Below, piece by piece: positions 9,034 to 48,461 of a DNA stretch of 64,000 nt; within the stretch, counting starts at the first letter, position 1; each line of letters begins with the position of its first letter. This stretch comes from Phaeacidiphilus oryzae TH49 (lineage in GTDB: Bacteria; Actinomycetota; Actinomycetes; Streptomycetales; Streptomycetaceae), in the NCBI RefSeq assembly GCF_000744815.1, contig NZ_JQMQ01000005.1, positions 3,232,055-3,296,054 of the forward strand, given 5' to 3'. A program made the position numbers and the translations under genes. Below the pieces are notes generated by a model, which did not search any database, was not told where the DNA came from, and saw nothing but the letters and a program-made list of their open reading frames with translations.

Positions 9034-9106
9034 GCGTTCAGCGTAAGCGCACGCCGGTGACCGGCAGTCGGCCCGAGAGCGAGGCATCCGCCGCCGGTCG
9101 CCGAGA

Positions 9107-9139
9107 ATTCACCTTGAGGTCGGTGCCGGTTCACTCCCA
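9107..9139 (+). promoter_or_regulatory. PHO-box-like direct repeats between phoR and phoU
   Basis: ATTCACC at 9107-9113 and GTTCACT at 9129-9135 are spaced exactly 22 bp, i.e. two 11-bp units, with a degenerate unit (GGTCGGT) between them. This fits the known Streptomyces PhoP operator, built from 11-bp direct repeat units with a conserved GTTCACC core. The site would serve both phoR-phoP and phoU by autoregulation. Confidence 0.65.
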
Positions 9140-9210
9140 CTGGGCTCCCGGGACGTTCGGGCCGCCGATCCTGTGGTGGACGGAGGCAGCCGAGGAATCG
9201 AGGAGCAGCG

Positions 9211-24918: not shown

Positions 24919-24921
24919 CCC

Positions 24922-26865: not shown

Positions 26866-26900
26866 CGTTGCCAATCTGCCGCAAACAACGTCTGCCAACT
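26850..26900 (-). repeat. Internal transposon-end-like repeats just after tniQ
   Basis: GTCAACCGCAAACTAGCG (26850-26867) matches the reverse complement of the left-end unit at most positions. GCCGCAAACAACG (26878-26890) and TGCCAACTG (26893-26901) are degenerate copies about 22-28 bp apart. They face the same way as the right TIR but lack the terminal CCAGTCACA, so they are binding sites or a relic of an older, nearer end. Confidence 0.6.
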
Positions 26901-27029
26901 GCCCCGGCACAGCAGAGGGGCGCCAGCATGGCTGACGCCCCTCGAAGCCTTAACCCCGGAAGCATGCAGGTCGGCAGGGGCCGCACGGGGTCTTCCCCAC
27001 CAGACTACCGACGACAGGGACGCGGCGGC

Positions 27030-33372: not shown

Positions 33373-34395
33373 TCAGAAGCCGTCCGGGCACCACGGCCTG
33401 GCGTCGGTGCGCAGCAGCCGGTCGGCACGGGCGGCGGCGCCCGGGCGCTCCTCGCGGACCAGGCCCGCGGCGGCCAGCCGGTGGGCGGTCTGGGCTCCCA
33501 GATAGAGGGTGCCCAGCTGGGAGACGTCCAGCGCGAGGTCGGCCGGCTCGCCCTCCGCGGCCGGAGAGACCAAACCCCGTACCTCCGCGCCGTCCTGACG
33601 GGTCTCCAGCACATACCGGCCGGCCGTGTACCCCATCCGGTCCGCGACGTCCAGGACCAGCCGGCCGGGGGCGTCGTAGGTGCGGGCGGAGAGCGCCGCC
33701 GGGACGTCGAGGACGCGCAGCCAGATCCAGTCCGCGACGGTGTCCTCGTGCGGGACGCAGGCCCGCGGGTTGCGGAGGAGCAGCGGCAGCGGGTCGTCCG
33801 GGGCGACGTTGGCCGCCTTCACCGTGCTGATCCAGTCCACCGAGAAGAGGTAGCGCCACAGCTCGGTGCGGGCGGTGTCGCCGACGGCGAAGAGGTCCTG
33901 GACGGTGAGGGTGTCGTGGGACTCGCCGTGCCGCCAGACGTCGTCCACCGAGTAGAGGGCGAGGCCGTCCGGGGTGCCGTCGGGGGCGCGGTGGAGCACG
34001 GCGGCCGGCTCCTTCCAGTCCGGGTGGGCGGGGTGCCGAAGCTCACCGGTGATCTGCCGCCAGACCTCGGACGGGCGGTCGATCGCGCCGACCTGGCCGC
34101 GCCGGAACCGCTCGTGGAGCTCGGGCCCGTACTTGCGGACCTCGGCCATCCCGATCAGCTCCAGGCTCCCGGTCGGGGCCGGCAGGTCGGGGCGGAGGCC
34201 GCCGGAGCGGCGGACGTCGATGGTGTAGGCGGTCATCCCGGTGCACGGGCCGAAGCCGAAGCGCCCGTAGATGCCGTACTCGGCGGCGTCCAGGATGGCC
34301 AGCGCCTCGCCGCGGCCGACCGCGGCGTCCAGATCGGCCCGCATCATCGCGGTGAGCAGCCCGCGGCGGCGGTGGGTGGCGGTCACCGTGACGTT
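33373..34395 (-). pseudogene. Eis-like GNAT N-acetyltransferase, C-terminal part cut off by integration
   Basis: 340 codons from the junction Asn at 34395. The GNAT acetyl-CoA loop VTATHRRRGLLTAMM is directly at the junction, followed by the tandem GNAT domain (AILDAAEYGIYGRFGFGPCTG) and the sterol-carrier-like C-terminal domain ending RPWCPDGF, as in Eis. The first 83 residues are at 48216-48461. Joined, they give a continuous 423-residue protein reading AVTNVTVTATHRRRG, the normal Eis length. A hybrid start (ATG 34419, MPREKCLTNV) inside the element could still produce a truncated protein lacking the first strands, unlikely to be active. Eis proteins acetylate amines such as aminoglycosides. 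Confidence 0.9.
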
Positions 34396-34398
34396 GGT
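34394..34398 (+). other. Attachment site core, left junction
   Basis: Chromosomal GTCACCGTGACG then TTGGT then element sequence CAAGCACTTTTC. The deduced empty site reads CGTGACGTTGGTGACGGC; the deduced circular-element site reads TATGACATTGGTCAAGCA. Both share TGAC-N-TTGGT. Confidence 0.8.
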
Positions 34399-34601
34399 CA
34401 AGCACTTTTCACGTGGCATGTCGAAGGCTGGTGAGACTTGCCTAGACTCCCATTGAGCTGCTCACAGGGGTAACACGGCCTCCTGCGCAAGAGGGGGCCG
34501 GGCACCCCTCGTCAGGCTGGTCCATTAGGCGCACGATGATCAAAGAGGGCACCCCCAGGTTTCGGGGGCGATCGTCGCCACTTTGCGGCTAAGCTGATTG
34601 C

Positions 34602-35735
34602 GTGAACCTACAAGCACAGATCGAGTTGATCACCAATCCCCAAGATTTCTCCCGCCTCTGTGATGCCGTCCTCCAGGCGGAGTACGGCTCCGACTTTTTG
34701 CCCATAGACGACGATCGCCCCGACAAAGGCAACGACGGGTTTCTCAAATCCGAGAAGCGCATATTCGCCGCACACTGTTTCAAGAGAGTTCAAAATAAGG
34801 GAATTGATAAGGATATACGTGAAAAAATGTTGGGCGACCTCGCAAAGGCGATCACCCTGAAAGAAAATAGTGATTGGGAAATCGAAGCATGGACATTTTT
34901 ATCCAACTACCCAATACCAGAACACATCGGCGTGCAAGCTATTTCCCTGGGTCGAGACGCAGGGATCGACGTAAGTTGGCGGGGCCCCAGTTATTTTGCC
35001 GAGGTGCTTCAGAAATTTCAGAGCGTTAGGGAGCTATTTCCAAATCTCCTGAGCAACGACCTACTCCGCAAATTGGATGTTATCGCCAATCATATAGGCG
35101 CCCTGAAACCACAAGACCCCCTGATCAATTGGCCTCCGAGAAACACTTACGAGCAGCACCTACTTATTTCCCAGAAGCCGCAAGCGTGGGAATACCTACT
35201 TTTCGCCGGAGTACTGCTCCAGGGAAAAGAACGGCTAGAGCCAAAGTGGCGTGACTTTCTCAGTGGACACGGGCGACGAACAGGATCGTACCTAAGCGAT
35301 TCCTCCGCAAAAGACTACCTCCGAGCAGCATTGTCGGACATTCAGCGAATACCTGGAGGGATCCATGGGGTGCTCGAAAGTGACTGGCAGGAAGCGGCAT
35401 TCGGGCCCCCTGGGACGCCGGGAGACGCGCGGGCAATAGAGCATATTGGTGCCCGCATAATCGAGGCCTATGAAGACCTTCTTGACTGGGCTGCGGAAAT
35501 GCGGGGAGCCATCTGCCCCGACAGCATGACGAAAGCCTTCGACCTGGGCGCACGAGTTGCCGAAAGGCCCGCGCAGGATTTTCGTAGATTCATAGACCAC
35601 GCGATTCTTGAGTTCAGTAGTATTCCTGACAAATTGGCCAACGGAGAAAGAGTCGCAATCAGTTTGACACTAAAAGTGGATGCGGACAATGCGGCTCTCG
35701 CAAAATTCGTCGAAGAATGCAAGCGATGCTGGTGA
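34602..35735 (+). CDS. AT-rich gene with nuclease-like N-terminal domain, candidate defence protein
   Basis: 377 residues from GTG 34602. Codon use and A/T content differ strongly from neighbours, so it is a recent acquisition. Residues 15-75 (FSRLCDAVLQAEYGSDFLPI, then PDKGNDGFLKSEKRIFAAHC, FKRVQNKGIDKDI) have the order of a restriction-endonuclease-like domain: a helix with Glu, an acidic G-x-DG segment, then a strand. The expected E/Q-x-K reads A-x-C/K, so it may be degenerate. Residues 80-135 continue with a helix and strand (WEIEAWTFLSN, DAGIDVSWRGPSYFAEVLQKF). The C-terminal ~200 residues are helical and unrecognised. Such fusions occur in antiviral and plasmid-conflict genes. I do not know the function. 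Confidence 0.6.
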   Translation: MNLQAQIELITNPQDFSRLCDAVLQAEYGSDFLPIDDDRPDKGNDGFLKSEKRIFAAHCFKRVQNKGIDKDIREKMLGDLAKAITLKENSDWEIEAWTFLSNYPIPEHIGVQAISLGRDAGIDVSWRGPSYFAEVLQKFQSVRELFPNLLSNDLLRKLDVIANHIGALKPQDPLINWPPRNTYEQHLLISQKPQAWEYLLFAGVLLQGKERLEPKWRDFLSGHGRRTGSYLSDSSAKDYLRAALSDIQRIPGGIHGVLESDWQEAAFGPPGTPGDARAIEHIGARIIEAYEDLLDWAAEMRGAICPDSMTKAFDLGARVAERPAQDFRRFIDHAILEFSSIPDKLANGERVAISLTLKVDADNAALAKFVEECKRCW

Positions 35736-36037
35736 GATCGAAGCGGTGGCTGCGCCAACCAATATAGAGCAGGAGCGCCAGAGTAAATTTGTGATCTTTT
35801 CCGAATCCCAACTCCGAAAAATCCCTGGCCGCGCAGCCAGGGCCCCTCTCTCGCTCCGAGATGATCCCTCCACCTCAATCCTGTCTGCCCGTTAATCAGG
35901 TAGCCCGCGAAGCCACTCTTCAGGGTGAAGGTTAGCTGGCCGGCCCCAGACCCGTTCCTCTGCGGGTTCGAACGCACCTACTACGGCACGGCCGACTCAG
36001 CTTCGGCTGCTGATGGGACCGCCCTGGCGAGCGCCTG
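35736..36037. other. Intergenic stretch after the nuclease-like gene
   Basis: 302 bp. Apart from the hairpin at 35823 I see no gene. The first 100 bp keep the low GC of the preceding gene; after about 35930 the base use returns to host-like. Confidence 0.5.
35823..35842 (+). terminator. Hairpin after the 34602 gene
   Basis: CCCTGGC (35823-35829) pairs with GCCAGGG (35836-35842) around a 6-nt loop, 88 bp past the stop. Confidence 0.6.
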
Positions 36038-36280
36038 ATGCCGCTGGAGGAAGAGGGAGGCGCCTACGTCTCCCCGAACCAGATCGATAACGAGCTGCGC
36101 AGGCTTAGGGACGGGGTGGTCCGGCTCCAGACCCCCGAGTACGACGACCGACTCCGCGCGCTTGAGCGCCGGGGCTGGCGGTCCCCCGGCGGAGCCGCCG
36201 CGTTCGGCGCGGTTGCCAGCCACATCATCCAGCTAGCGGCATCCCTCACTGGGCAAAATCAGCCTTGCTGCGTAAACTAG
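36038..36280 (+). CDS. Small hypothetical protein
   Basis: 80 residues from ATG 36038. It has an acidic and basic helical centre (QIDNELRRLRDGVVRLQ, YDDRLRALERRGW) and a mildly hydrophobic segment GGAAAFGAVASHIIQLAASL. It resembles no family I recognise and could be the remnant of a larger gene. No good ribosome site. Confidence 0.4.
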   Translation: MPLEEEGGAYVSPNQIDNELRRLRDGVVRLQTPEYDDRLRALERRGWRSPGGAAAFGAVASHIIQLAASLTGQNQPCCVN

Positions 36281-36317
36281 CTTTTATCAAGCGCTCTGAC
36301 TGAACCGCTTGACAAGC

Positions 36318-36357
36318 GAGGGTGACCCAGGACCGCTAAGCCCCAGGTCACCCCCTC
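36318..36357. terminator. Hairpin terminator
   Basis: GAGGGTGACC (36318-36327) pairs with GGTCACCCCCTC (36346-36357) with slight bulging. It lies between the small + strand gene and the minus-strand membrane peptide. Confidence 0.65.
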
Positions 36358-36376
36358 TTGAATGATGATCTTCGCG

Positions 36377-36526
36377 CTACTTGCTTGCCGGCTTGCGAGC
36401 GAAGATCACGCTCAGCACGTGCTGGGCGCGTGTACGTAGTCGCTCGCCGCCGAATACGGCGGCGAGCACTACGACCCCGACTGAGCCCCCAACGGCTCCC
36501 CCCGCTGCGGTCATAAAGTCCACCAT
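36377..36526 (-). CDS. 49-residue single-pass membrane peptide
   Basis: ATG 36526 follows GAGGGGGTGAGAG, a convincing ribosome site. The peptide has a short N-terminus MVDFMTAA, a glycine/valine membrane helix GGAVGGSVGVVVLAAVFGG and a basic C-terminus (ERLRTRAQHVLSVIFARKPASK). The layout resembles small holin-like or stress peptides and conjugation-associated membrane peptides, but no family is recognised. Confidence 0.55.
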   Translation of the reverse strand: MVDFMTAAGGAVGGSVGVVVLAAVFGGERLRTRAQHVLSVIFARKPASK

Positions 36527-37201
36527 CTCTCACCCCCTCCCTTCGAGGAGACAAAATTTTAGTGCACGATCGCATGCGGTGCTAAACACCCGGTGACCTG
36601 CAAACTCCTTGATCGTAAAGCGGTTTTTTTGCATCTAGTCACAAATAGTTCGGGGCTCACGTGGTTGTGACTATCCCTCGCCTTGCACAGACGACCATTT
36701 TGCGTCCTTTGCCCTGCTATGCGGGTGACCAACATCACTATCTGGGTTGGCGGGGAGTCTCTCGTTAGCTGCGCTCACCTGCAATAACTCTGCTTTGCCA
36801 TTTTGCCATCTAGTCACTTTGAATGGACTGAGGCGTCGGCTCACTGGGCCATCCCGACCTCCAGCGTCGGGGGTGCCCACCTGCACACGCCAGGGCGCTC
36901 ACAAAGGACATCAGAGCGCGGCACCGCCGGCCACGGTCAGACCGGCGCCCCAGTTCGCGTGGAATCGATGCCGAGGCTGTCAGCACGCGTACGCGCGCGA
37001 GCGGAGTCCGCGAGTACCTCGCCACCGGGATACAGGCAGTGCGACTACACGCCCCTTACGTACCGTCCAGTTCGGCGCCGGTCGCGTGGTCGATGAGCCG
37101 GTCATCGAGCGAACGGGCCCAGATCTCCGGACGCACGGCCGAGCGGCACTCAGCCTCGACGCAGTACCCGAACAGACACCCGAGATATTCGTTCCGGGTG
37201 C
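36527..37201. other. Long intergenic region with repeated 11-mer
   Basis: 675 bp with no convincing gene; the open frames here overlap and have no ribosome sites. CATCTAGTCAC occurs twice as a direct repeat (36632-36642 and 36807-36817), both in a less GC-rich sequence with T-runs. It may hold promoters for the membrane peptide (leftward) or a replication/transfer site. Confidence 0.4.
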
Positions 37202-38449
37202 TCAGTAGATCTCGTACGGGTCTCTGCCGAGTACGTCCTTGATGTGAGACAGCGCATCGCGAAGGGAGGCTGGAGCCTTGTCGTAGTTGTCCTCACGCTG
37301 CAAGGTCTCGCGCAAGACGTTGAGTGAGCGGGCAGAGCCCGTCTCCCGAACCATTGGCATGATCTCGGCAGCGACTGATGCCGCCTCGCTCCACGCTTGG
37401 GCCCGCAAACTGGCGTCGAGTAGACGCACGAGGAAAATTAGTTGATATCCGGTCTCGGACTGATCATGAGCCGAACTCTCCAGCAGTGGGACAGCCTGTT
37501 GCATCTCGCCGTGGCGGACCAGGCTCCAGCCGTGGTGCCCGCCAATTTCGCCCCGCGTGACCCACCATGACCAAGCGGGGTCGTCGGCACGCAAGCTCTC
37601 CTGCGTCAGAGACTCAGCCCTGCTGAACGACTTTTCTGCCGCGCGCAAATCTCCCAGGTGAGCGAGTCCGCGGGCCTCTCGTACGCGGAACATCGACTCG
37701 ACTCGCGGCGACAACTTTCCCTGTTCCAGCACAGATCGAGCGACCGCGAGTTCTTCGCTGTACCGGCCGTTCCAGCCGGCCTGCATGGCCATGTTCTGCA
37801 AGATCAGCAGCTCCATGGCTCGATCACCCGAGAGCCGCGCCAGGTACAGCGCCTCCTGGTTGAAGCGGCGCGCGGGGCCGTGCTTCTCGGCATCGAAGAG
37901 GACCCAGCCGGCGACTTCGGCAAGTTCGCTCGCTGCGGCAAGGGTGTCGCTCCCGAGGTCATCCGGCGCGCTCTGACCTATCCGGTCATGGACCTTCTTG
38001 AACGCCCGGACGGCTGCGTCGGCGACGCTCATACCACCGAGCTGGACATCCAGATCCAACAGCTGACGGGACATTCCACGTATCGACTGGGCGAAGTCCT
38101 CGCCACCATGTGCCCCGGGATGTGTGCCGTTCGGGAGCGATAGCTGCTTGATGCCTTCGTTTTCCCAAGGGCGTGGGAGCAGTCCTACCATCATCCCGGG
38201 TATCCGGAGGCCGTCGCAGATCTCCTTGATCTTGTCGATTGTCGGGATCCTGCCTTTGCCCTTGGCCACGACTCCGACGCGGCTAGGGGTCATGCCACAG
38301 GCTTCGGCGATCTGGTTGAAGCTGATCCCGCCCCATTTGCGGGCGAGCTGGAAGAACTCGCCGAAGTCGTGCGCTGCCAGCGCGGACCGGACATCCTCCC
38401 GCTCCAATACGTCGGCGGGCAGGGGCCTCGGTGGCGTGTAGCCGGTCAT
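37202..38449 (-). CDS. Helix-turn-helix regulator with TPR-like domain
   Basis: 415 residues. An N-terminal XRE-type HTH (about 28-75: ISFNQIAEACGMTPSRVGVVAKGKGRIPTIDKI) is followed by a linker and a long series of TPR-like helices (about 155-380), e.g. AGWVLFDAEKHGPARRFNQEALYLARL, YSEELAVARSVLEQGKLSP and HLGDLRAAEKSFSRAESL. Such proteins are common in streptomycetes and integrating elements, and may sense peptides or partner proteins. Divergent from the ATPase-fold gene at 38624, with the palindrome at 38479 between them. Confidence 0.85.
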   Translation of the reverse strand: MTGYTPPRPLPADVLEREDVRSALAAHDFGEFFQLARKWGGISFNQIAEACGMTPSRVGVVAKGKGRIPTIDKIKEICDGLRIPGMMVGLLPRPWENEGIKQLSLPNGTHPGAHGGEDFAQSIRGMSRQLLDLDVQLGGMSVADAAVRAFKKVHDRIGQSAPDDLGSDTLAAASELAEVAGWVLFDAEKHGPARRFNQEALYLARLSGDRAMELLILQNMAMQAGWNGRYSEELAVARSVLEQGKLSPRVESMFRVREARGLAHLGDLRAAEKSFSRAESLTQESLRADDPAWSWWVTRGEIGGHHGWSLVRHGEMQQAVPLLESSAHDQSETGYQLIFLVRLLDASLRAQAWSEAASVAAEIMPMVRETGSARSLNVLRETLQREDNYDKAPASLRDALSHIKDVLGRDPYEIY

Positions 38450-38478
38450 TGCTGCTCTCCCCGTGAGCGCCGACGACC

Positions 38479-38491
38479 TGACGGAGCGTCA
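38479..38491. promoter_or_regulatory. TGACG-N3-CGTCA palindrome in a divergent promoter
   Basis: TGACGGAGCGTCA lies 30 bp upstream of the HTH-TPR gene and 133 bp upstream of the ATP-binding gene. It is a perfect copy of the recurrent motif. Confidence 0.45.
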
Positions 38492-38623
38492 AACTCCCTC
38501 GTCACAAGTGTACCCATGCTGCCTATGCCCATCGTGGGGATGGGAACGGCGCGACATCGGAGGACCTTGGTTGCTGTCCGAGGAACGAGCCTCGGCCGGC
38601 TGGCAAGGACGGTGGGTCGTGTC

Positions 38624-39166
38624 ATGGAAACAGGAAGGGTCGTGGGCGGTGCGCTCCCGGCGGCGGCGGGCGGCAAAGTCTGGGGTGACGGGTTGGCGGC
38701 TGAGGGCCGCTTCCGAGCGCTCTCGCTCCTTGCTGACGCGCGGGACACCCCGCACGCCGCGCGGCAAATGGCGGTCGGCACGCTGATCGCCTGGGACCTG
38801 CCCGGGATCGCCGACGAAGTGGAGTTGTGCGTCTCGGAGCTGGTCACCAACGCGGTCCTGCACGCGATCGTGGGGCGGCACCTGTGCGAGCCGGGCTACC
38901 GGCCGACCATCACGCTCACGTTGCGGGCCTGGCCGCGCTGGCTGTTCATCGACGTGATGGACGAGGACCCCTCACCCCCCACCCTGCCGATAGGGGATGG
39001 GTTCGGCCCGGAGCTGGCCGAGGGCGTGCCGGAAGCCTTGATCCTGGATCACGGGCGGGGCCTGGGGATCGTGCGGGAGCTTGCGGATCAGGTGTGGTGG
39101 ATGCCGGACGGGGATGGCGGCAAGTCGGTGTTCTGCCGCTTCGATCTGGAGCCGGTGAGGTCATGA
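38624..39166 (+). CDS. ATP-binding protein, RsbW-like (HATPase_c, anti-sigma type)
   Basis: About 180 residues from ATG 38624; earlier in-frame starts exist (e.g. 38516). GHKL ATPase motifs: N box ELVTNAVLHAIVG near residue 75, G1-like DVMDEDPSPP, and G2-like GRGLGIVRELADQVWW near 150. It lacks the kinase HisKA part. Streptomycetes have many such proteins, which bind ATP and may phosphorylate anti-sigma antagonists; the partner is unknown. It overlaps the next small gene by 4 bp (ATGA). Confidence 0.8.
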   Translation: METGRVVGGALPAAAGGKVWGDGLAAEGRFRALSLLADARDTPHAARQMAVGTLIAWDLPGIADEVELCVSELVTNAVLHAIVGRHLCEPGYRPTITLTLRAWPRWLFIDVMDEDPSPPTLPIGDGFGPELAEGVPEALILDHGRGLGIVRELADQVWWMPDGDGGKSVFCRFDLEPVRS

Positions 39167-39372
39167 GCCGCCGATGGGCCGCGCTGCGGCGGGCGGCGGG
39201 CGATGCCGCGTGGTGGTGGCTTCTTCATCGCGACCTGTATCGGCTGCTGAACGCCTACAACACCCAGTTCGGGCGGCGCCACGCCCCCTCGAACCCCTGG
39301 GACCTGACGGCCCGTCGGCTGCGCAGGTACTGGACCCAGGTTCGCACGGAGCGCTTCCGCTCCGACCGTTGA
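39163..39372 (+). CDS. Small basic hypothetical protein
   Basis: 69 residues coupled to the ATP-binding gene (ATGA overlap). Rich in Trp and Arg ([31 protein letters not shown] in sequence order) and ends RRYWTQVRTERFRSDR. Possibly a DNA- or membrane-associated peptide; no family recognised. Confidence 0.6.
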   Translation: MSRRWAALRRAAGDAAWWWLLHRDLYRLLNAYNTQFGRRHAPSNPWDLTARRLRRYWTQVRTERFRSDR

Positions 39373-39590
39373 CCACTGCGCGCCGGAGGGCAAACCGCGC
39401 GCGGTGCGGATCCCCCGGCCCTTGGTCCCCGTCCTCGGGGCGGGGGATCACAGACCGACAACCGAAGAGATGAGAACCGGACCACCCCGTCCAGCTTGGC
39501 GGCAGAGAAGGGGTGGTCCGGGGGGCGAACCCCGGTGCTGATGGTACCGGGGCCGTCGCCATGTGCATATGCGGCTCTCGGAACAGGAGT

Positions 39591-39603
39591 TGACGGATCG
39601 TCA
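39591..39603. promoter_or_regulatory. TGACG-N3-CGTCA palindrome
   Basis: TGACGGATCGTCA, 21 bp before ATG 39625. Its position would block or position transcription of the small gene. Confidence 0.45.
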
Positions 39604-39624
39604 GCCTTGGGAGGGCTGTTCCTG

Positions 39625-39936
39625 ATGTGCAGCAACGAGAACATGGGCCATGAGCTTCCGGCCGACCTGGACCCCGCCTCGTGGGCCTGGCTGCCGGGCG
39701 TGGACTGCCTCACCGGTTGGAAGGGTGCGCGGGAGATCGCTTGGCGGCTCAACGCGGCCTTGTCGGGGGTCGGTCTCCCGGCAGAGCAGATGGACGCGTG
39801 CGCCGGGAGCCTCGCGGACGGTCGGGGCGTGGTCAAGCTCGCGGGCACCCCGCAGGCGGCTATGTGGCTGGCCGTGCTCCTGGAGAGCATCGCCACGGAG
39901 CACGCGGAGGAGAGCCCCGGGGAGGGCGCGGCGTGA
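39625..39936 (+). CDS. Hypothetical AICE accessory protein
   Basis: 103 residues from ATG 39625 with GGGAGG upstream; the longer frame to 39496 is less likely. Contains LDPASWAWLPGVDCLTGWKGAREIAWRLNAALSGVGLPAEQMDACA (in sequence order), then VKLAGTPQAAMWLAVLLESIA. This helical, Trp-containing type is common in streptomycete integrating elements; its function is unknown. A GTG at 39933 overlaps its stop, but the following frame is Arg/Pro/Gly-rich and unconvincing. Confidence 0.6.
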   Translation: MCSNENMGHELPADLDPASWAWLPGVDCLTGWKGAREIAWRLNAALSGVGLPAEQMDACAGSLADGRGVVKLAGTPQAAMWLAVLLESIATEHAEESPGEGAA

Positions 39937-40616
39937 ACCGGCTCGGACCGCGCGCGGCCACCTGGGCGCCACTGGTGAGGGGCCGCCCGATAGCTCGCCG
40001 CACAAGGAGGCGGGGCGGGCTGTCAAGGGTGACCGGAGGTCATCGGCTTGCCGACGCCGCAGGCGCCCTTGACCGCTCGGCACGGCTCCCATCCTCACGA
40101 AGCGGGCGGCCCCGCCCCGTCCCCACTTGCGGACACCCGGGGCCGACCGGGGCCCGCCGGCACTTTCGGGTCGCTCACCTGGGCGGACCTGGTGCGGCCC
40201 GGGTGGGCTGTGCGGCTCGGCCTCCGCCGCTCGGGCCGCTCGCACTGGCGCGGGGCGGTGTGCCGTCCGGCCGGGATCGGCGCCCACGCCGCACGCCCGG
40301 CCGGGGCGGCAAAGCCGCCCCGCGCGGCGGCGCGCAGCGCCGCCCTTGAGACAGTAAAGAAGAGTTTCGACACCCGGCCCGGAGTGGGCGTCAGCCATTC
40401 GGGGGCCGCAGTGGTTCTGGATGCTGTGCTGGACAACCGGGACGATAGGCCCGTTGCGGTGGTGGGCAGCCAGGTACCGCTTCAGCACCAGTCATGATCC
40501 CCAATGGACCTGGCACTGGACTCGCGGATGATCTTCGACCCCGCATGCCGTTTGCAGGCAGTCGACACACTGACTTGTCGCCGGGCGCTATCCTGATTCT
40601 TCAGGCAGGATTGGGG
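39937..40616. other. GC-rich stretch without a convincing gene
   Basis: 680 bp. Two long frames exist (GTG 39933-40349 and ATG 40048-40497), but both encode Arg/Pro/Gly/Ala-rich sequence. The second contains a slightly more protein-like part (TFGSLTWADLVRPGWAVRLG) and could be a gene remnant. The composition falls abruptly at about 40560, where the lower-GC membrane gene begins. Confidence 0.4.
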
Positions 40617-41492
40617 ATGGGGAAACGGTCGATCATGGCAGCCAATGGTGAGCGCAAAGTAAGGGGCCAAATTACCAGCAGGTCGAAGAACCTGGCCCAG
40701 ATTGACGGAAAATTGGAGGAACTTCGTTCGAGACTGATTATTGATAACCGTACCGGGCACCTTTCTGCTGAGGCTCGCAGTGCGCTTATACGTGAGTTGT
40801 CCAGAACCTCAAAGCGCCGTGAAATTCTGCTCAAACAGTTGGAAGTGCGTAGTCCACCTATCATCGTCACGGGTGGCAGTAACGTTATCAATACTGGCCA
40901 GACTATCCGCGGTCCTCAAACTAACAGCCCGTCGTCTGCATCTGCTATAAAGATCCAGGGCCAATCATCAGCAGTGCATCGGAAGTCGTCGGACCGACGC
41001 GTGGAATTTGTCTATGGGTCGCTTCAGGATGAGCGTACCGAGGCGAAGGTGGCTTTCTGGCTGAGCCTGACTGTCGCCAGTCTGGCGGCGATCATCGCAC
41101 TGAGTGCAGCCGGTATCGCGCTTTTTCATGACGGAGATCAGAGCACGAAGTGGGTCACAAGTTTCGTCTCAGCGGTCGTCGCCATCGCAGGAGGCGTGTG
41201 GCACAAGCAAGCTCGTCAAGCTCGCGACAAAGTCTCTGCACACGTTGAGCGCGTAGAGAAACAGGTTGAGGCGGACGAACGCTACGAGAAAACGAAGGCG
41301 TGGATTGATCGCGTCCGTGATCCTGCAATGCGGGACAGGCTCAATGCAGGAGCTATTATCGCCGAATTGGGTTACCAAGCAGATCCGAACATTCTGACTG
41401 ATCGTCTTCTTGGCAGGCTCGTGGGGGAACCTGAGGCTCTTCCGGGCGACAAGGACACTGGTGGGACCCGAAATCCCGACGCCCGGACATGA
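40617..41492 (+). CDS. Two-TM protein resembling the TRADD-N-associated membrane domain
   Basis: 291 residues from ATG 40617 (or 40635). The N-terminal 75 residues are a charged coiled coil (SKNLAQIDGKLEELRSRLI), then a Ser/Gly linker with GGSNVINTGQTI. Two membrane helices, FWLSLTVASLAAIIALSAAGIALF and WVTSFVSAVVAIAGGVWHKQA, are separated by a short loop and followed by a helix (VSAHVERVEKQVEADERYEKTKAWI). This hairpin plus helix fits the TRADD-N-associated transmembrane domain described in bacterial conflict systems. The GC content is below that of neighbours. The family match is by eye and needs a profile search. Candidate defence or programmed-death membrane effector. Confidence 0.55.
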   Translation: MGKRSIMAANGERKVRGQITSRSKNLAQIDGKLEELRSRLIIDNRTGHLSAEARSALIRELSRTSKRREILLKQLEVRSPPIIVTGGSNVINTGQTIRGPQTNSPSSASAIKIQGQSSAVHRKSSDRRVEFVYGSLQDERTEAKVAFWLSLTVASLAAIIALSAAGIALFHDGDQSTKWVTSFVSAVVAIAGGVWHKQARQARDKVSAHVERVEKQVEADERYEKTKAWIDRVRDPAMRDRLNAGAIIAELGYQADPNILTDRLLGRLVGEPEALPGDKDTGGTRNPDART

Positions 41493-41581
41493 ATCACTTG
41501 GACCGCGTGAGAAATAACGATGCTTACTGGGCTAACCCACGTTGTTGATTCCCGATGGCGTGCGTGGCATCGACGCAGGGG

Positions 41582-42355
41582 TCACACGCTGCGCGGGCCG
41601 TTTCTGGGTGTCTCAGCGGTGATCAAATAGTGCAGAGCGGTGCCGTCGGCGCGGGCGCGCAGTTCTTCCAGAATGAGCGGCCGGCCGTTGGCGGCGTCCC
41701 GCGTGACACGGTAGGAGAGCAGCAGCGGCACGGCTTCGGGCAATCCCAGCGCGGTGCGCTCGTCGGGGTGGGGCATGCGGGCGCGGACGGTCTCTGACCA
41801 CTCCAGCTTCCGCCCACCCTCGGCGAGGATGCTGTACAGCTCGGCGACGGGGCGCGCGGGGTCGTCGATTAGCGCGGTGCCCTCGGCGGTCGCCAGAGGG
41901 ATGATCACCCGGTGCAGGATGCGGTCGCCGTGCTGGGGGTGGATGAGGGTGCGGTCCACGGTGATGACGGCCTCCTCCTCGACCAGGCCGAGCAGCGGGG
42001 CGGTAACGCTGTCCGTGTCGGCGCGGTAGACCGCGGGGGCTTCAGCCTCGGGCCAATCATCCTGCGGGGTGGCGTACTTGGCCCCCGCCTTGGTCACCCG
42101 GCGCTTGATGCCGACCGCGTGCGCCGGCGCGGTGGCGCGGACGAAGGAGCCCTTGCCCATCACCACGTCGACCAGGCCCTCCGAGCGCAGTGAAGCGATG
42201 GCCTGCCGAACCGTCGGTCGGGAAATCTTGTAGCGCCTGCTGAGTTCGGCTTCGGAGGGGAGCATGCCGCCGGGCGGGTACTCGCCGTCGGCGATGGCCT
42301 GCCGAAGGACCTTCGCGGCCTGCTGGTACAGGGGTTCATTGCGGACGATCTCCAT
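41582..42355 (-). CDS. GntR/UTRA family repressor, KorSA-like
   Basis: 257 residues. The GntR winged helix is at residues 8-75 (LYQQAAKVLRQAIADGEYPPG, then LPSEAELSRRYKISRPTVRQAIASL and a wing VVMGKGSFV). The UTRA effector domain fills the rest (AVITVDRTLIHPQHGDRILH, LLLSYRVTRDAANGRPLILEE). The arrangement, divergent from the transfer genes, matches KorSA of pSAM2, which keeps transfer and replication silent in the integrated state. The boxes at 42402-42541 are candidate operators. Confidence 0.88.
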   Translation of the reverse strand: MEIVRNEPLYQQAAKVLRQAIADGEYPPGGMLPSEAELSRRYKISRPTVRQAIASLRSEGLVDVVMGKGSFVRATAPAHAVGIKRRVTKAGAKYATPQDDWPEAEAPAVYRADTDSVTAPLLGLVEEEAVITVDRTLIHPQHGDRILHRVIIPLATAEGTALIDDPARPVAELYSILAEGGRKLEWSETVRARMPHPDERTALGLPEAVPLLLSYRVTRDAANGRPLILEELRARADGTALHYLITAETPRNGPRSV

Positions 42356-42401
42356 GGCGCTCGATGCCTCCTGGAACGGGCCCGACCCAACCGGTGGGCG
42401 T

Positions 42402-42541
42402 CACCTGTCAGCATAGGCACGCGTAGGTAGACGTCAAGACAGGGCAGCATGCCACCTGTCCTGACAACTGATGTCCGCTAACCCCTTGCGCACCCATCTC
42501 CGAGGGCGCATACTGCCAATCCCAGCCTGTAATGACAGGTG
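42402..42541. promoter_or_regulatory. Divergent operator region with three CACCTGTC boxes
   Basis: CACCTGTCA at 42402-42410, CACCTGTCCTGACA at 42453-42466, and the inverse TGACAGGTG at 42533-42541. They lie between the GntR repressor and the SCO3933-type gene and overlap the likely promoters of both. Confidence 0.6.
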
Positions 42542-42602
42542 ACGGCCGACCGAGGATGACTGGTCGGCCGGGGAGATCATCCAACGACCAAGGAGTACAC
42601 CC

Positions 42603-42947
42603 GTGTTGCGGTCCATCCCCGTGGACATCACCCGACTCGGCCACCTGCGCTGCGTCGGGATCGAGCAGAAGATCGGCGACTACGAGACCAAGGAGCCCAA
42701 GTACGACCGCGAGGGCAACCCCCTCTACGTCGTCTCGCTGGCCGCGAAGACGCCCGGTCGGCGGGCCGAGTTGATCGACGTGGTGATCACCGGCAGGCCG
42801 GACGTGGAGGAGGGCGCCGCCGTCCACGTCAGTGGCCTGGTCGCCGCGCCGTGGGAGATCGAGGGGCGCTCGGGGGTCAGCTTCCGGGCCGAGGCGATCA
42901 CCTCCGCCGTCCCGGCCCGGCCGGTCAAGGGCGGTGACGCCGGATGA
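42603..42947 (+). CDS. SCO3933-type regulatory protein of integrating elements
   Basis: 114 residues from GTG 42603 with AAGGAG upstream. The sequence SIPVDITRLGHLRCVGIEQK, then DREGNPLYVVSLAAKTPGRR, is typical of a small family placed just before traSA in AICEs. Its C-terminal half has OB-fold-like strands (VHVSGLVAAPWEIEGRSGVSF), so it may bind single-stranded DNA. It overlaps the next gene by 4 bp. Confidence 0.75.
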   Translation: MLRSIPVDITRLGHLRCVGIEQKIGDYETKEPKYDREGNPLYVVSLAAKTPGRRAELIDVVITGRPDVEEGAAVHVSGLVAAPWEIEGRSGVSFRAEAITSAVPARPVKGGDAG

Positions 42948-43213
42948 CCAACCATCCCGACTGGCGCGATCTGCGCCGGCTGCTGTGGGAGATAGGCGAC
43001 CTGGGCGAGGAGGTCGCCCCCGGCATCGCCTGGCCGGAGGTCCAACTCCTGTACCCCTACGTCGCCACCACCTGCGAGCGCGCCGCCGGCATCGCCCGCG
43101 ACCTGCTCACCGAACACACCAACACCCGGGCCGAGAACGAGCCGACCCCTGCCGCGAGCGCCGCCGAGGTCATCGCCCGAACGGACACCGACACCCCCAA
43201 GGAGGACGCGTGA
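42944..43213 (+). CDS. Hypothetical protein of the transfer operon
   Basis: 89 residues, overlapping both neighbours by 4 bp (ATGA, GTGA). A helical N-terminal half (WRDLRRLLWEIGDLGEEVAPG, TCERAAGIARDLLTEHTN) precedes a Thr/Ala/Glu-rich disordered tail. Small proteins in this place are common in streptomycete AICEs; role unknown. Confidence 0.65.
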   Translation: MTNHPDWRDLRRLLWEIGDLGEEVAPGIAWPEVQLLYPYVATTCERAAGIARDLLTEHTNTRAENEPTPAASAAEVIARTDTDTPKEDA

Positions 43214-44592
43214 GCACCCATCCCGCCCCCTCGCCCCGGCCGGGGATCATCGGCTCCGGGGCCTACCTCCACCCCGTCCAGCACCCCGCCGGCCCCAGCA
43301 CGGCCAGCCCGGTCCTACTGGCCCTGGCGGTGCTGTTACTGGCGCTGGCGATCGCCTCGCCGATCCTGCGCTCCCGCGCCCCGCACGCCTGGTGGTACCT
43401 GATCGGCTTTCCGCTCACCTGCGTGCGGATGCGGGTCACCTGGCGGCGACTGACGACCCTGACCGACCTGGCCGTCCCCAAGCGCCCCGACCGCCGCATC
43501 CTGGGCGATGTGGAGGTCCGCGGCCGGGCCCTGCGGCCCATCCCGCCCACCCTCGGGCTTCCGCGACCCCGGCGCGGCGGTCTGGTGGTCACCGTGCGGC
43601 TGCACCCGGGACAGACCCCCGAGCAGTACGCGGCGGTCGCGGACGCCTTGGCGCACGCCTGGCGGGTGCACGCGGTGCGGGTCACCTCACCCGGGCGCGG
43701 ACTGGTGGAGCTGAGCGCGCTCGGCTGGGACCCCCTCACCGAGACCCGCCCACCCCACGCCACAGGCCGACTGCTGGCCGCGACCGTGGGCAACCGGGAG
43801 GACGGACGCGCCTGGATGCTGGATCTGCGAGCGATGCCGCACTGGCTGATCGTCGGCGCCACCCAGTCCGGGAAATCCACCCTGCTGGCCGGGGCGGTCT
43901 CCCAGTGGGCCCGGCAAGCCGTCGCCCTGGTCGGCATCGACCTGAAAGGCGGCATGGAACTCTCCCTCTTCCAAGCGCGCCTGTCGGCGCTGGCCACCAC
44001 CCGCAGTGAGGCGGCCGGACTGCTGGCCCACCTGGTGCAGACGGCCATGGAACGGATGGCGACCTGCCGCGCACACGGGGCCCGCTCAATCTGGGAGCTG
44101 CCCGGCAAGCTGCGCCCAGTGCCGATCATCGTGCTAATAGACGAGCTGGCAGAGCTGTTCCTGATGGCCACCCGGGACGAGCGCGATGAGGTCGCCCGCA
44201 CCTCCACCGCGCTCATCCGCCTCGCCCAGCTCGGCGCCGCCCTGGGCATCCACCTGGTCATCGCCGGACAGCGGGTCGGCTCCGACCTGGGCCCCGGAGC
44301 GACCGCGCTGCGCGCCCAGCTCGCCGGCCGCATCTGCCACCGCGTGAACGACCCCGGCACTGCGGAGATGGCCCTCGGTGACCTGAACAAGGACGCGTTG
44401 GCGGCGGCGCAGCAGATCACCGAGGAAGAGAAGGGCGTCGCGATCACCTTCGAGGAGGGCGGCGGCTGGATGCGCACCCGCTCCACCCTCACCACCCCCG
44501 AGCGCGCACGCGCCATCGCGCAGAAGTACGCCCACCTCACCCCCGCCCTCGGGGACCTGGGGCCGAACGACCACCCGGGGGTGTACGCGTGA
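43210..44592 (+). CDS. traSA: FtsK/SpoIIIE-like DNA translocase, TraSA-like transfer protein
   Basis: 460 residues from GTG 43210. One or two N-terminal membrane helices (LLALAVLLLALAIASPIL, WWYLIGFPLTC) are followed by the motor: Walker A VGATQSGKSTLLAGA near residue 220, KGGMELSLF, Walker B VPIIVLIDELAELF near 310, and VIAGQRVGSDLGPGATALRAQLAGRI with the arginine-rich end. Proteins of this type move double-stranded DNA between mycelia, the hallmark of Streptomyces plasmid conjugation. The stop overlaps the next start (TGATG). Confidence 0.93.
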   Translation: MSTHPAPSPRPGIIGSGAYLHPVQHPAGPSTASPVLLALAVLLLALAIASPILRSRAPHAWWYLIGFPLTCVRMRVTWRRLTTLTDLAVPKRPDRRILGDVEVRGRALRPIPPTLGLPRPRRGGLVVTVRLHPGQTPEQYAAVADALAHAWRVHAVRVTSPGRGLVELSALGWDPLTETRPPHATGRLLAATVGNREDGRAWMLDLRAMPHWLIVGATQSGKSTLLAGAVSQWARQAVALVGIDLKGGMELSLFQARLSALATTRSEAAGLLAHLVQTAMERMATCRAHGARSIWELPGKLRPVPIIVLIDELAELFLMATRDERDEVARTSTALIRLAQLGAALGIHLVIAGQRVGSDLGPGATALRAQLAGRICHRVNDPGTAEMALGDLNKDALAAAQQITEEEKGVAITFEEGGGWMRTRSTLTTPERARAIAQKYAHLTPALGDLGPNDHPGVYA

Positions 44593-44756
44593 TGGTCACC
44601 CTCCCCGCGTTCGTCCTTCTCGGCATCGTGGTGTTCCTGCTGATCCGCTCCGGCGAACTGCCCGTGTGGATCGCCCTGGTGTGCACCCTGCTCGGTGCCG
44701 TGATGTCCGTGCCGCTGCTGGCCGCGCTGCACTGGCTCGTTCACAGCCTCGGCTGA
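44592..44756 (+). CDS. Spd-like small membrane protein
   Basis: 54 residues starting at the ATG overlapping traSA's TGA. Two hydrophobic helices, LPAFVLLGIVVFLLI and WIALVCTLLGAVMSVPLLAALHW. Resembles the Spd proteins that help spread plasmids within the mycelium (pock formation). Confidence 0.65.
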   Translation: MVTLPAFVLLGIVVFLLIRSGELPVWIALVCTLLGAVMSVPLLAALHWLVHSLG

Positions 44757-44785
44757 CCACCCCACCGAAGAAAGGAAACCCGCCC

Positions 44786-44896
44786 GTGTTCCGCCGTGTG
44801 ATCTGCCCGCAGTGCAAGGGCATCCGCCGCACCCGCCCGCACGCCAGCCGGCCGCGCCGCTGCCGCTGCTGCCGGGGCAACGGCACCATCCGCTGA
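44786..44896 (+). CDS. Small zinc-ribbon peptide
   Basis: 36 residues from GTG 44786, with GAAAGGA upstream. Four cysteines as CPQC near the start and CRCC (RRCRCCRGNG) near the end suggest a single zinc knuckle, in a very Arg-rich context. Likely nucleic-acid binding; located between spd and repSA. Confidence 0.55.
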   Translation: MFRRVICPQCKGIRRTRPHASRPRRCRCCRGNGTIR

Positions 44897-45074
44897 CCCG
44901 CCCGCTCGCCCTCGTCCACAGGCCGTGGATGAGCGGTCCATCCGATGAACGGAGTGATCCCCATGGAGATCCGCGCCACCGCCCGCACCACCACTCTTGC
45001 TGCCGCGTCCGGCCCGCTCGCCTCCTCGGCGGCCGGGCCGGGCCCGGCCCCCACCCCCCGCCCCTGGAGGATGC

Positions 45075-46526
45075 TTGACCGCGCACTGTGCGCACCCCAA
45101 CCCCTACGACAGCCCTGCGGCCCGCCGCGCCTTCCTCGACCTGGACGACCGCCTCAAGGCCCTCGACGAGGAAGACCGAGACCTATACCGCATCGCCCAC
45201 ATGCCGGGCCGTGACCGCTGGATCCAGCAGATCCAAGCAACCGGCGGCTGCGCCCACCCGATCTATCTCGCCGGGCAGAGCACCACCTACGACACCGCAA
45301 CCGGGCTCGTCCTGCGGCACTACACCACCGCCGAGGAACCCGGGGGACGCCTCGCCGTGCGCTGCCGCAACCGCCGCGAGAGCCGCTGCGCCCCCTGCTC
45401 CCGCGAATACCAAGGCGACACCTTCCACCTGATCCGCGCCGGCCTGCTCGGCGGCAAGAACGTCCCGGAGAGCGTGAAGGCCAGACCCCGACTCTTCGTC
45501 ACCCTGACCGCCCCCGGTTTCGGCACCGTCCACCAGGCCGGCGACTGCCACCCCGATCGCGGCGGCCGGTGCCCGCACGGGCAGCGCCGGGCCTGCCACC
45601 GGACCCACCACGACGGGGACGCCCTGATCGGCCAACCACTGTGCGCACGCTGCTACGACTACACCGGCCACGTGCTGTGGAACGCCCACGCCCCCGCCCT
45701 GTGGAAGGCCTTCACCGACAACCTCTACCACCACTTCGCCGCCGCCACCGGGACCGGCCGGACCAAGATCCGCCGACAGGTCCGCATCTCCGCCGCCAAG
45801 GTCGCCGAATACCAGGCACGCGGCGCCGTCCACTTCCACGCCGTGCTACGCCTCGACGGACCCGACGGGCCGGCCACGGAACCTCCCCCGTGGGCCAGTG
45901 CCGAACTGCTGGCGCGATGCGTCCCGACCGCCGCCGCGGCCGTCGCCCTGGCCCTCCCACCCTCCGACGCAGTCGGAGACCTGGTGCTGCGCTTCGGCGA
46001 ACAACTCGACGTCCACCCCATCGACGCAACCGGCCTGCGAGATGATCAGGTGGCGGGGTACGTGGCGAAGTACACGACCAAGAGCGTGGAAGCGGCCGGC
46101 GCCCTCGACCGGCGCATTACCGACGGCGACCAGATCCCCCGCCTACGCACCACCGAGCACGTCCGGGCGCTGATCGGAACCGCCTGGCGACTCGGTGAGG
46201 CCCCGGAGTTCGCGCACCTACGGCTGCGCGCCTGGGCACACATGCTCGGCTTCCGGGGCCACTGCCTCACCAAGACCCGCGCCTACTCCACCACCCTCGG
46301 TCAACTCCGCGCCGCCCGCGCCGAACACGCCCGCTCCGCCAACAGCCCAGACCTGTACCTCATGACGGACGACGGCACCGACACCGTGTCCACCTGGCAC
46401 TACGTCGGCTCCGGCCACACCCCCGGCGAAGCCCTCATAGCCGCAGGCATCGCCGAAGACCTCGCCCTCATGCGGGAGGTAATCCGAGAAGTCCTCGCCG
46501 ACGAGCGGGCGGGGGTGAGCTCCTGA
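45075..46526 (+). CDS. repSA: RepSA-type replication initiator
   Basis: 483 residues from TTG 45075, which has GGAGG 4 nt before it; no ATG or GTG near the family N-terminus is in frame. A cysteine-rich part (RCAPCSREYQGDTFHLIRAG) precedes the conserved RPRLFVTLTAPGFGTVH. The HUH-like metal motif is AVHFHAVLRLDGPDG, and the catalytic Tyr candidate is in VAGYVAKYTTKS. It should nick the double-strand origin for rolling-circle replication after excision. The origin is often upstream of or inside the gene. Confidence 0.88.
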   Translation: MTAHCAHPNPYDSPAARRAFLDLDDRLKALDEEDRDLYRIAHMPGRDRWIQQIQATGGCAHPIYLAGQSTTYDTATGLVLRHYTTAEEPGGRLAVRCRNRRESRCAPCSREYQGDTFHLIRAGLLGGKNVPESVKARPRLFVTLTAPGFGTVHQAGDCHPDRGGRCPHGQRRACHRTHHDGDALIGQPLCARCYDYTGHVLWNAHAPALWKAFTDNLYHHFAAATGTGRTKIRRQVRISAAKVAEYQARGAVHFHAVLRLDGPDGPATEPPPWASAELLARCVPTAAAAVALALPPSDAVGDLVLRFGEQLDVHPIDATGLRDDQVAGYVAKYTTKSVEAAGALDRRITDGDQIPRLRTTEHVRALIGTAWRLGEAPEFAHLRLRAWAHMLGFRGHCLTKTRAYSTTLGQLRAARAEHARSANSPDLYLMTDDGTDTVSTWHYVGSGHTPGEALIAAGIAEDLALMREVIREVLADERAGVSS

Positions 46527-46660
46527 CGACGCGCGATGAACGCAGATCGCGAGAGGCGGACGCGCGGGAACGGGCCCTCGATCGGGTCTCGGCCCGTTTC
46601 CCGACACGCATCTCCGAACGAAGCGCACGGCGCCTGGCGCGCATGCTGAACGCATCGTAA
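46523..46660 (+). CDS. Possible 45-residue basic protein, non-standard start
   Basis: The frame from CTG 46523 to TAA 46660 reads TTRDERRSREADARERALDR then VSARFPTRISERSARRLARM, a helical basic peptide with protein-like codon use. It lies where AICEs often have a small excisionase or regulator before the integrase. The start is doubtful: no ATG/GTG fits, and it overlaps the repSA stop by 4 bp. Confidence 0.35.
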   Translation: MTTRDERRSREADARERALDRVSARFPTRISERSARRLARMLNAS

Positions 46661-48181
46661 TCACAAAGGATTTGGATCGATATCGATGCGGTCATAGTCG
46701 AACTCGCCGACAGGCATGGACGACTCGTCGATGATCACGGCGTTGAACAGGAATCGCAGGACCGCGTTCTTGCGCTCGTCGGTGAGCTTCTCGAAGTTCA
46801 CCTTGGCGTTCGGCCCTGCGATTCCGTCCAAGATGGTCACGGGACGGACCACGGACTTCGACTGCGCCTTGGCCAGCCGCTCCTGGATCACCTTCTTCAT
46901 CTCCAGGTACTCGCTGGTGAGGAGCTGCTTTCGGGCCCACATCATGTTGAGCTCTCGAAGCTGCTGTTCGTCTTCGGCGATCGCGGTCTGCTCGGCCTCG
47001 CGGTTGACTGCGGCGGACGTGTCGTACGTCGAGAGATCGAGCTCCTGGAGCAAGCGGATCGCTGCGCGCTGGACGAAGTCCTCAAGCTTCTCAGCATCGA
47101 TCCGGCGGTGACACACCTTGTTGTCGAGCCGGACGCTGCGGTTGCACTGGTAGGAGTACGAGCGGAAGTGAGCCCCCTTTCGGTTCCCTCCCTCCGAGCG
47201 TCGGCAGCCGCTCATGTGCACTTCGCAGCGCTTGCAGAGGACCAGGCCCCGCAGCAGATAGAAGCGCTTCCCCGGCCTGTTCTCGGCGGCGGCGAGTTGG
47301 GCCGCGCGGTACTTGCGGCGCTCGCGCACCTCCTGCCAAGTACCCAGGTCGACTATGGCGGGCCACCTTCCGGCACCGATCTCCTCGCCCCGGAACACAT
47401 GGATGCCGGCTACGTGCCGAGAGTCGAGGATGCGCAGAACGGTTGAGTTGTTCCAGGTCCCGGCGGACGCGGTGGGGATCTCGCGCTCGTTTAGGTTGAC
47501 GGCGATCGCCCGAGCTGACTCACCGTCAAGGAAACGCTCGAAGATCTCGCGTATGATCTCCGCCTCTTGGGGGATCAGCGTCATGCGGTCCTTCTGGTAG
47601 CCGAAGATTCGCTTGCCCCCGTGCGGGGTGCCGTCCTCGGCCTTCTGGTCGAACTTGTCGCGGATGCGCCGGGAAGCGTCGTCCGAGGAACGGCATGCGT
47701 GGGCTACCTCGATGCGGAGGATGAACCGATCGTCGGGGTCGCTGAGATCGCGTCGGTTGACCTGGCCGTGTAGGACAATCTTCTTCTCGTCCGAGATCTG
47801 AAGCAGATCTTCGAGATCCCTCGGCTGCCGCATCAGGCGGTCCGGGTGATAGGCGATCACATGGCGGAACTCGGACGCCTGCATCGCGATCAACATGGAG
47901 TCCCAGTAAGGGCGCTGTCGATCACGCTTCCACGCTGAGCGATTGTTGTCGATGTACACGTGCTTGGGGTCCACCGTGACCCCCAGCCGGTCAGCGATCT
48001 CCCGGCAGATCTCCTCCTGCCGATCAACGCCGGTCTGGTCGTCATCCGCAGCATGCGAGATGCGGCAGTAGATCGCGGCACTCTCGCCTCTGACGCTCTC
48101 CTCGGTCCGTCGCCTGCCCCTGCGCCGGGGCTTCTCCGAGGTGGGCTCGCTACCCGACTCCTTGCTCTGGCGCTCCGTCAT
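46661..48181 (-). CDS. int: Large serine integrase
   Basis: 506 residues from ATG 48181; ATG 48193 adds four. Resolvase catalytic domain (about 30-185): Ser in AAIYCRISHAADDDQTGVDRQ and Arg in YHPDRLMRQPRDLEDLL. Recombinase domain (about 200-295; PHGGKRIFGYQKD, SARAIAVNLNEREIPTASAGTWNNSTV). Zinc ribbon with CKRC and QCNR...VCHRR. Coiled coil (AEDEQQLRELNMMWARKQLL). It carries out unidirectional attP x attB recombination. The start is 30 bp from the right att core, so in the integrated state its transcript can come from the interrupted eis gene's promoter. Confidence 0.93.
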   Translation of the reverse strand: MTERQSKESGSEPTSEKPRRRGRRRTEESVRGESAAIYCRISHAADDDQTGVDRQEEICREIADRLGVTVDPKHVYIDNNRSAWKRDRQRPYWDSMLIAMQASEFRHVIAYHPDRLMRQPRDLEDLLQISDEKKIVLHGQVNRRDLSDPDDRFILRIEVAHACRSSDDASRRIRDKFDQKAEDGTPHGGKRIFGYQKDRMTLIPQEAEIIREIFERFLDGESARAIAVNLNEREIPTASAGTWNNSTVLRILDSRHVAGIHVFRGEEIGAGRWPAIVDLGTWQEVRERRKYRAAQLAAAENRPGKRFYLLRGLVLCKRCEVHMSGCRRSEGGNRKGAHFRSYSYQCNRSVRLDNKVCHRRIDAEKLEDFVQRAAIRLLQELDLSTYDTSAAVNREAEQTAIAEDEQQLRELNMMWARKQLLTSEYLEMKKVIQERLAKAQSKSVVRPVTILDGIAGPNAKVNFEKLTDERKNAVLRFLFNAVIIDESSMPVGEFDYDRIDIDPNPL

Positions 48182-48190
48182 GTTCCGTAC

Positions 48191-48207
48191 CATACGAGCG
48201 TCGTATG
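48191..48207. promoter_or_regulatory. 17-bp palindrome next to the right att core
   Basis: CATACGA-GCG-TCGTATG, a perfect 7-bp inverted repeat, 4 bp from the TTGGT core and just before the integrase start. May be an integrase or regulator binding site. Confidence 0.5.
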
Positions 48208-48210
48208 ACA

Positions 48211-48215
48211 TTGGT
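48211..48215 (+). other. Attachment site core, right junction
   Basis: TTGGT between element sequence TCGTATGACA and chromosomal GACGGCATCGGC; partner of 34394-34398. Confidence 0.8.
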
Positions 48216-48461
48216 GACGGCATCGGCGACCACGGCGGCGCCGCCGGGGACGGTGATGTCCCGGCGCATGCTGCGGAAGGTGCCGACCACCCGGTCCCGG
48301 TCGAAGGCGCCCAGGGAGCGGCCCGGTTCGAAGAACTCCCGGCGGAAGGCGAGGTCGAGGTCGCCCTCGGGATGGGACCGCAGGAAGCCGGTGTTGACGG
48401 CCCGGCCCCACTCCTCGAGTTCGTCGGCGGTGATGGGACGGATGATCGGGTCGGCGCTCAT
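48211..48461 (-). pseudogene. Eis-like acetyltransferase, N-terminal part
   Basis: From ATG 48461: MSADPIIRPITADELEEWGR, then NTGFLRSHPEGDLDLAFRRE and the strand pair RVVGTFRSMRRDITVPGG, ending AVTN at the junction; the frame then runs 20 codons into the element to a stop at 48150. With 33373-34395 it makes one complete Eis-family protein. GTG 48497 is an alternative start. Same strand as the integrase, which it overlaps. Confidence 0.9.

Follow-up and report, generated by a model that had tools for sequence, protein, structure and literature searches.

A gene just inside the left end of an integrative element in Phaeacidiphilus oryzae TH49 encodes a protein in which a restriction-endonuclease-fold domain is followed by a helical domain that matches none of the families described in Pfam, NCBIfam, PADLOC and PHROGs, the libraries searched. 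We consider it rather likely that the gene is mobile-element cargo with a predicted function as a self-contained immunity protein, joining effector and sensor in a single product, and from its sequence it is probably an anti-virus or anti-plasmid single-gene system of new design. In the mechanism we propose, the N-terminal domain would be the effector, and the C-terminal helical bundle would serve as a regulatory or sensor module that keeps the nuclease inactive in the absence of an infection or foreign-DNA cue. Such a cue would then release the nuclease to cut invader or host DNA, resulting in abortive infection or in exclusion of plasmids and other elements. Positions in Table 1 refer to the window, the whole 64,000-nucleotide stretch of DNA that was analysed.

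Table 1. Features of the gene and its element, in window coordinates.
Feature	Positions	Strand	Remarks
AICE-like integrative element	34389..48215	.	~13.8 kb; inserted in an Eis-family acetyltransferase gene
-10-like TAAGCT, putative leaderless promoter	34590..34595	+	ends 6 nt 5' of GTG
Gene: restriction-endonuclease-fold domain plus helical C-terminal domain	34602..35735	+	377 aa
N-terminal PD-(D/E)XK-fold domain	34602..35051	+	modelled residues 1-141; profile match residues 11-138
Predicted active-site segment D45...A56-A57-H58	34734..34775	+	most conserved stretch (88%, residues 41-60)
K75 and D79, helix after strand 3	34824..34838	+	kept also in ABC-three-component relatives
C-terminal helical-bundle domain	35139..35732	+	common to TIR-, two-TM-, amyloid-motif- and PIN-associated proteins
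FtsK/TraB-type DNA translocase	42832..44592	+	
RepSA-type replication initiator	45045..46526	+	E 1.4e-144
Large serine integrase	46661..48223	-	true start probably within the element, near 48181

The gene, its putative promoter and its mobile element

The reading frame is intact, with a GTG start and no internal stops, and we take this start to be right because the N-terminus 'MNLxxQI-LIT' is kept in all full-length homologues. Protein identity among the six intact homologues (window protein included) is 54-59%, reaching 74% in the nuclease half versus 47% in the C-terminal half, with residues 41-60 forming the protein's conservation peak. Synonymous sites are saturated between homologue pairs, and dN is about 0.16-0.24 in the N-terminal half and about 0.4-0.6 in the C-terminal half; judged by its sequence, this is a real gene under purifying selection. 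The sequence-only reading of this DNA had described the base use of the gene as strikingly different, and its GC content (0.524) and GC3 (0.561) are indeed the lowest among the called genes of the window, compared to GC3 values of about 0.9-0.97 in flanking chromosomal genes and mostly 0.76-0.88 in other genes of the element. All seven nuclease-type genes compared (window gene included) are similarly AT-rich (52-57% GC), indicating that low GC is a property of the family.

A ribosome-binding site is absent upstream of the GTG, and the motif TANNNT stands 6 or 7 nt from the start in 7/7 nuclease-type homologues (window gene included), compared to 26 of 329 other gene starts in the same loci and 0.4% of random positions. 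Such spacing close to the start codon is a recognised mark of leaderless transcripts in Streptomyces. From the conserved spacing and the missing ribosome-binding site, we infer that a conserved leaderless promoter drives the nuclease-type genes.

The acetyltransferase gene interrupted by the element is split: the part encoding the C-terminus lies left of 34.4 kb and that encoding the N-terminus right of 48.2 kb, and a short near-repeat, TGAC[GA]TTGGT, occurs at both element ends (34389-34398 and 48206-48215). The split gene and the near-repeat confirm the location at an element's left end that had been proposed from the sequence: the gene starts about 200 bp within that end, with the integrase at the other, and is placed outside the conserved transfer and replication block. 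The features by which an AICE is recognised, namely an integrase, a RepSA-type initiator, an FtsK/TraB-type translocase and chromosomal integration, are all present, and further element genes encode GntR and NsdA-family regulators. No strong PADLOC match was found among the other element genes scanned. One of them (40494-41492, + strand, 332 aa) carries a CyanoTRADDas_TM two-transmembrane domain (PF20712, E 2.2e-11), named after its association with TRADD-N conflict proteins, and by this sequence match is a possible second conflict gene in the element. Outside the element, at about 21000-27000, a PADLOC scan of flanking genes matched TnsB- and TniQ-type models, and a TniQ-type transposon may account for the large + strand ORFs at 21386-26865.

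Homologues were likewise found at AICE-like loci with RepSA, TraB and integrase genes (L002, L012 and L014), as were two versions with an amyloid-like motif (L016 and L017). One homologue adjoins the Wadjet genes JetC and JetD (L035), two lie a few kb or less from type IV restriction genes (L014 and L012), and a TIR version adjoins a ThsB gene fragment; in this comparison of five loci with a single, small control region, matches for the control, 39 flanking genes of the window element, were limited to generic models (ATPase, protease and transposition). A PADLOC SspH match among the neighbours was dropped, as follow-up could assign it to no gene. Two homologues are broken, one by truncation (L015) and one by an insertion sequence (L034, 8643-10547) that places an IS30-like transposase ORF between codons ~95 and ~101 of the nuclease-type gene; decay by truncation or insertion is common among costly accessory genes. 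The homologues are sporadic cargo and not part of fixed housekeeping contexts, and their mobile-element location, together with the defence-type relatives and neighbours, agrees with the earlier suggestion that the gene sits where integrative elements carry defence genes.

The N-terminal fold and its predicted active site

Scans of the full protein against Pfam (up to E 10), NCBIfam, PADLOC and PHROG returned nothing usable, and sequence matches in the PDB, such as haemagglutinin stems, were dismissed as chance, as were those to influenza HA2, spectrin and CARD. We modelled residues 1-141 as a separate domain, from an alignment enriched with ABC-three-component effector rows from viral contigs, and obtained a confident model (pLDDT 87, pTM 0.84) running helix, three strands, helix, strand, helix, strand, helix, with an alpha-beta-beta-beta-alpha-beta core. 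The closest solved structures were AF1548 (Z 11.8) and Avs4 (Z 10.7), followed by BspD6I, FokI, MspJI, AspBHI and LmuA (Z 8.2), and Foldseek placed EcoT38I and Avs4 at its top ranks. Because the model is confident and the best-matching solved structures are those of restriction endonucleases and related nucleases, residues 1-141 as modelled are a restriction-endonuclease fold. The nuclease similarity to AF1548, Avs4 and FokI supports the restriction-endonuclease-like order noticed from the letters, which in the model is seen as G43-N44-D45-G46 followed by strands 46-48 and 53-58. A comparison with Mrr and DUF4297 had also been suggested; neither Pfam family matched up to E 10, leaving a likeness at the level of fold only.

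A distant partial relative (L018) linked the window protein to plasmid proteins annotated as ABC-three-component effectors, most of which are encoded in one operon alongside middle component 6 and a third protein of the ABC-three-component type. The profile of the N-terminal half matched a profile of these effectors that was built without the bridging sequence (hhalign 97%, E 4.6e-11). In the viral-contig search, the sole relatives were N-terminal and came from ABC-three-component proteins, and no relatives of the full protein or of the C-terminal domain were found in viral contigs or phages. The N-terminal domain is thus homologous to that of the ABC-three-component (ABC-3C, Lamassu superfamily) effector that accompanies middle component 6, with D, G, K and D positions in common. 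However, these effectors read Q-x-Y-A-P where the window protein reads A-A-H-C-F-K, their C-terminal domain is unrelated, and neither the ABC ATPase nor the middle-component gene, both present in plasmid ABC-3C loci, was seen beside the window gene or its homologues. We therefore rejected membership of the ABC-three-component systems, given the lack of an ATPase and a middle component.

In the predicted active site, the Asp that PD-(D/E)XK nucleases have at the start of strand 2 is retained as D45, which stands immediately before strand 46-48 and is invariant across all homologues. On strand 3, the expected (D/E/Q)xK is replaced by A56-x-H58 in all homologues, where the ABC-three-component effectors read Q-x-Y, and the catalytic competence of the modelled domain is therefore uncertain. 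In the model, the missing (E/Q)xK might be made good by K75 and D79, which lie on the helix that follows. The gene offers a test case for cutting by a restriction-fold domain that has AxH where (E/Q)xK would be expected.

The C-terminal domain and its partners

The last ~200 residues were modelled as a helical bundle from a two-sequence input, in a model whose N-terminal half fell below pLDDT 50. Talin-rod-like matches of the C-terminal model (Z ~8.5) were set aside, as they lie in the range expected for any helical bundle. A bundle with no family match is what the sequence-only reading had anticipated in calling the C-terminus helical and unrecognised. A genome search with this part alone found the domain in 6 genomes of the family and 11 of the class (395 searched in each case), and by that measure it is rare and sporadic.

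Its partners vary. At L066 the domain is fused to a TIR domain (TIR_2, E 1.2e-20) and shares 40% identity with the C-terminal domain of the window protein (E 1e-48). At L067 a TIR-plus-C-terminal-domain gene (8230-9312, - strand) lies directly downstream of an 82-aa ThsB-like ORF (9351-9599, - strand) that matches the first half of ThsB in PADLOC (E 6e-38) and is perhaps a truncated Thoeris TIR gene. In L037-L042, which we take from their sequences to be mycobacteria-like, the domain follows hydrophobic, apparently two-transmembrane segments, and the match of these proteins to it is clear at profile level (hhalign 99.4%, E 4.9e-22). The two-transmembrane versions have a conserved linker (RADRQHRWALRGDxRGxYGxEGAELMR), and their contexts are varied and not obviously defence-like: at L037 the domain gene is followed by an HTH_17 gene and then a PIN_3 gene, and at L039 and L040 the same small secreted-protein gene precedes it.

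Two further versions (L016, 8359-9216, and L017, 8650-9498, both - strand) have an N-terminus with the pattern N-(F/L)-S-G-x3-G-P-V-x-Q-A-G in place of the nuclease. By eye we take this pattern, as a candidate label, to be the RHIM-like BASS3 amyloid motif of amyloid signalling proteins, a motif that the window protein lacks. Background on the RHIM-like BASS3 motif is given in PMC7889193. Both loci are AICE-like, with no NLR gene seen adjoining either, and a short-motif search for amyloid-like sequence in plasmids gave no match. The domain was also found on Arthrobacter plasmids, where one copy (L010) is a separate gene overlapping a PIN_4 gene.

Immune receptors are organised in this way, with a constant module and exchanged effector-like partners, and by this analogy the constant part, here the C-terminal module, would be the sensor or switch. 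Because it is the partners that are swapped, we assign the effector role to the nuclease half and the sensor role to the C-terminal half, an assignment with which the 74% versus 47% identity agrees. A broader reading, which we put forward tentatively and at slightly less than an even chance, is that the C-terminal domain is an undescribed, NTPase-free sensor or switch of Actinomycetota immunity, combined with at least four N-terminal kinds (restriction-fold nuclease, TIR, two-TM anchor and RHIM/BASS3-like motif) and with a separate PIN gene, and that AICEs spread these proteins as a previously undescribed class of single-gene immune receptors. Of the protein's two domains, the C-terminal one, whose sharing among these proteins the sequence-only reading had not noticed, is the greater novelty.

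Known systems and alternative functions

The window protein matches no PADLOC model, and we rejected its assignment to a known PADLOC anti-phage system. Avs4 (AVAST type 4), whose fold was second-best for the N-terminal domain (127 residues), likewise has an N-terminal nuclease with other domains behind it. However, the window protein is far shorter than Avs4 (377 versus ~1,500 aa), lacks a STAND NTPase and a repeat sensor, and has an unrelated domain in the sensor position; Avs membership was rejected because no NTPase family matched and a helical bundle replaces the STAND NTPase and repeats. TIR-sensor and NLR-like immune proteins with swappable N-terminal effectors offer a likeness in organisation, one constant C-terminal module bearing TIR, nuclease, TM or amyloid-like N-termini, but the constant module here has no NTPase and matches none of the library families.

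The distribution of the homologues raises the possibility that the protein guards its element instead of opposing phages, either by using its nuclease to exclude plasmids and AICEs that enter or compete, or by keeping the element stable as a regulated killer. The homologues are mainly on AICE-like elements with RepSA, TraB and integrase genes, the domain occurs on Arthrobacter plasmids (once beside a PIN gene), the L037 copy is beside an HTH and PIN pair, and the L035 homologue adjoins Wadjet, which is an anti-plasmid system. The ABC-three-component/Lamassu relatives are also active against plasmids (PMC10586767). Nevertheless, we consider element guarding unlikely, if worth keeping in view: no antitoxin-like partner was identified adjoining the window gene, and addiction suits the TIR and amyloid-motif versions less well than infection-triggered immunity does. 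A role in regulating the element's own excision or transfer, outside any conflict, would suit a gene at an element end with its own predicted leaderless promoter, but appears very improbable for a domain found in just 6 of 395 family genomes, far below the carriage of such elements, and for a gene outside the conserved transfer and replication block; the TIR and PIN versions are ill-suited to such a role, and relatives adjoin Wadjet and ThsB genes.

The replacement of (E/Q)xK by A56 and H58 across all homologues also keeps as a candidate the degenerate nuclease used as a sensor, an option raised in the sequence-only reading. The N-terminal domain would then be a catalytically dead nuclease fold that binds or senses DNA, and the C-terminal bundle would be the output module, as might fit the membrane-anchored mycobacterial versions, since membrane-acting death domains are often helical bundles. 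We regard this arrangement as improbable. The D45-H58 segment is the most conserved in the protein (88%) while the C-terminal half diverges fastest, and the joining of the same C-terminal domain to TIR, which is an effector in known systems, makes that domain the constant and not the variable part. By analogy with swappable receptors, the domain-swapping pattern favours an effector role for the nuclease half, with the C-terminal half as sensor or switch. With single-gene immunity as the preferred reading, the earlier proposal of a possible undescribed defence system stands in part: the fold, the undescribed C-terminus, the cargo position and the defence-type relatives and neighbours all speak for it, and protection itself is a prediction, together with the presumed cue, the cleavage of nucleic acid and DNA as its likely target.

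If this single-gene immunity reading is true, one small NTPase-free domain would couple invader detection to several killing outputs, in a design simpler than the receptors of NLR/STAND, CBASS or Thoeris systems. Such a single-gene system, simple in its genetics, would allow one sensor to be tried with interchangeable effectors, and it would provide a search model for Actinomycetota immune proteins that are missed by Pfam, NCBIfam, PADLOC and PHROGs.
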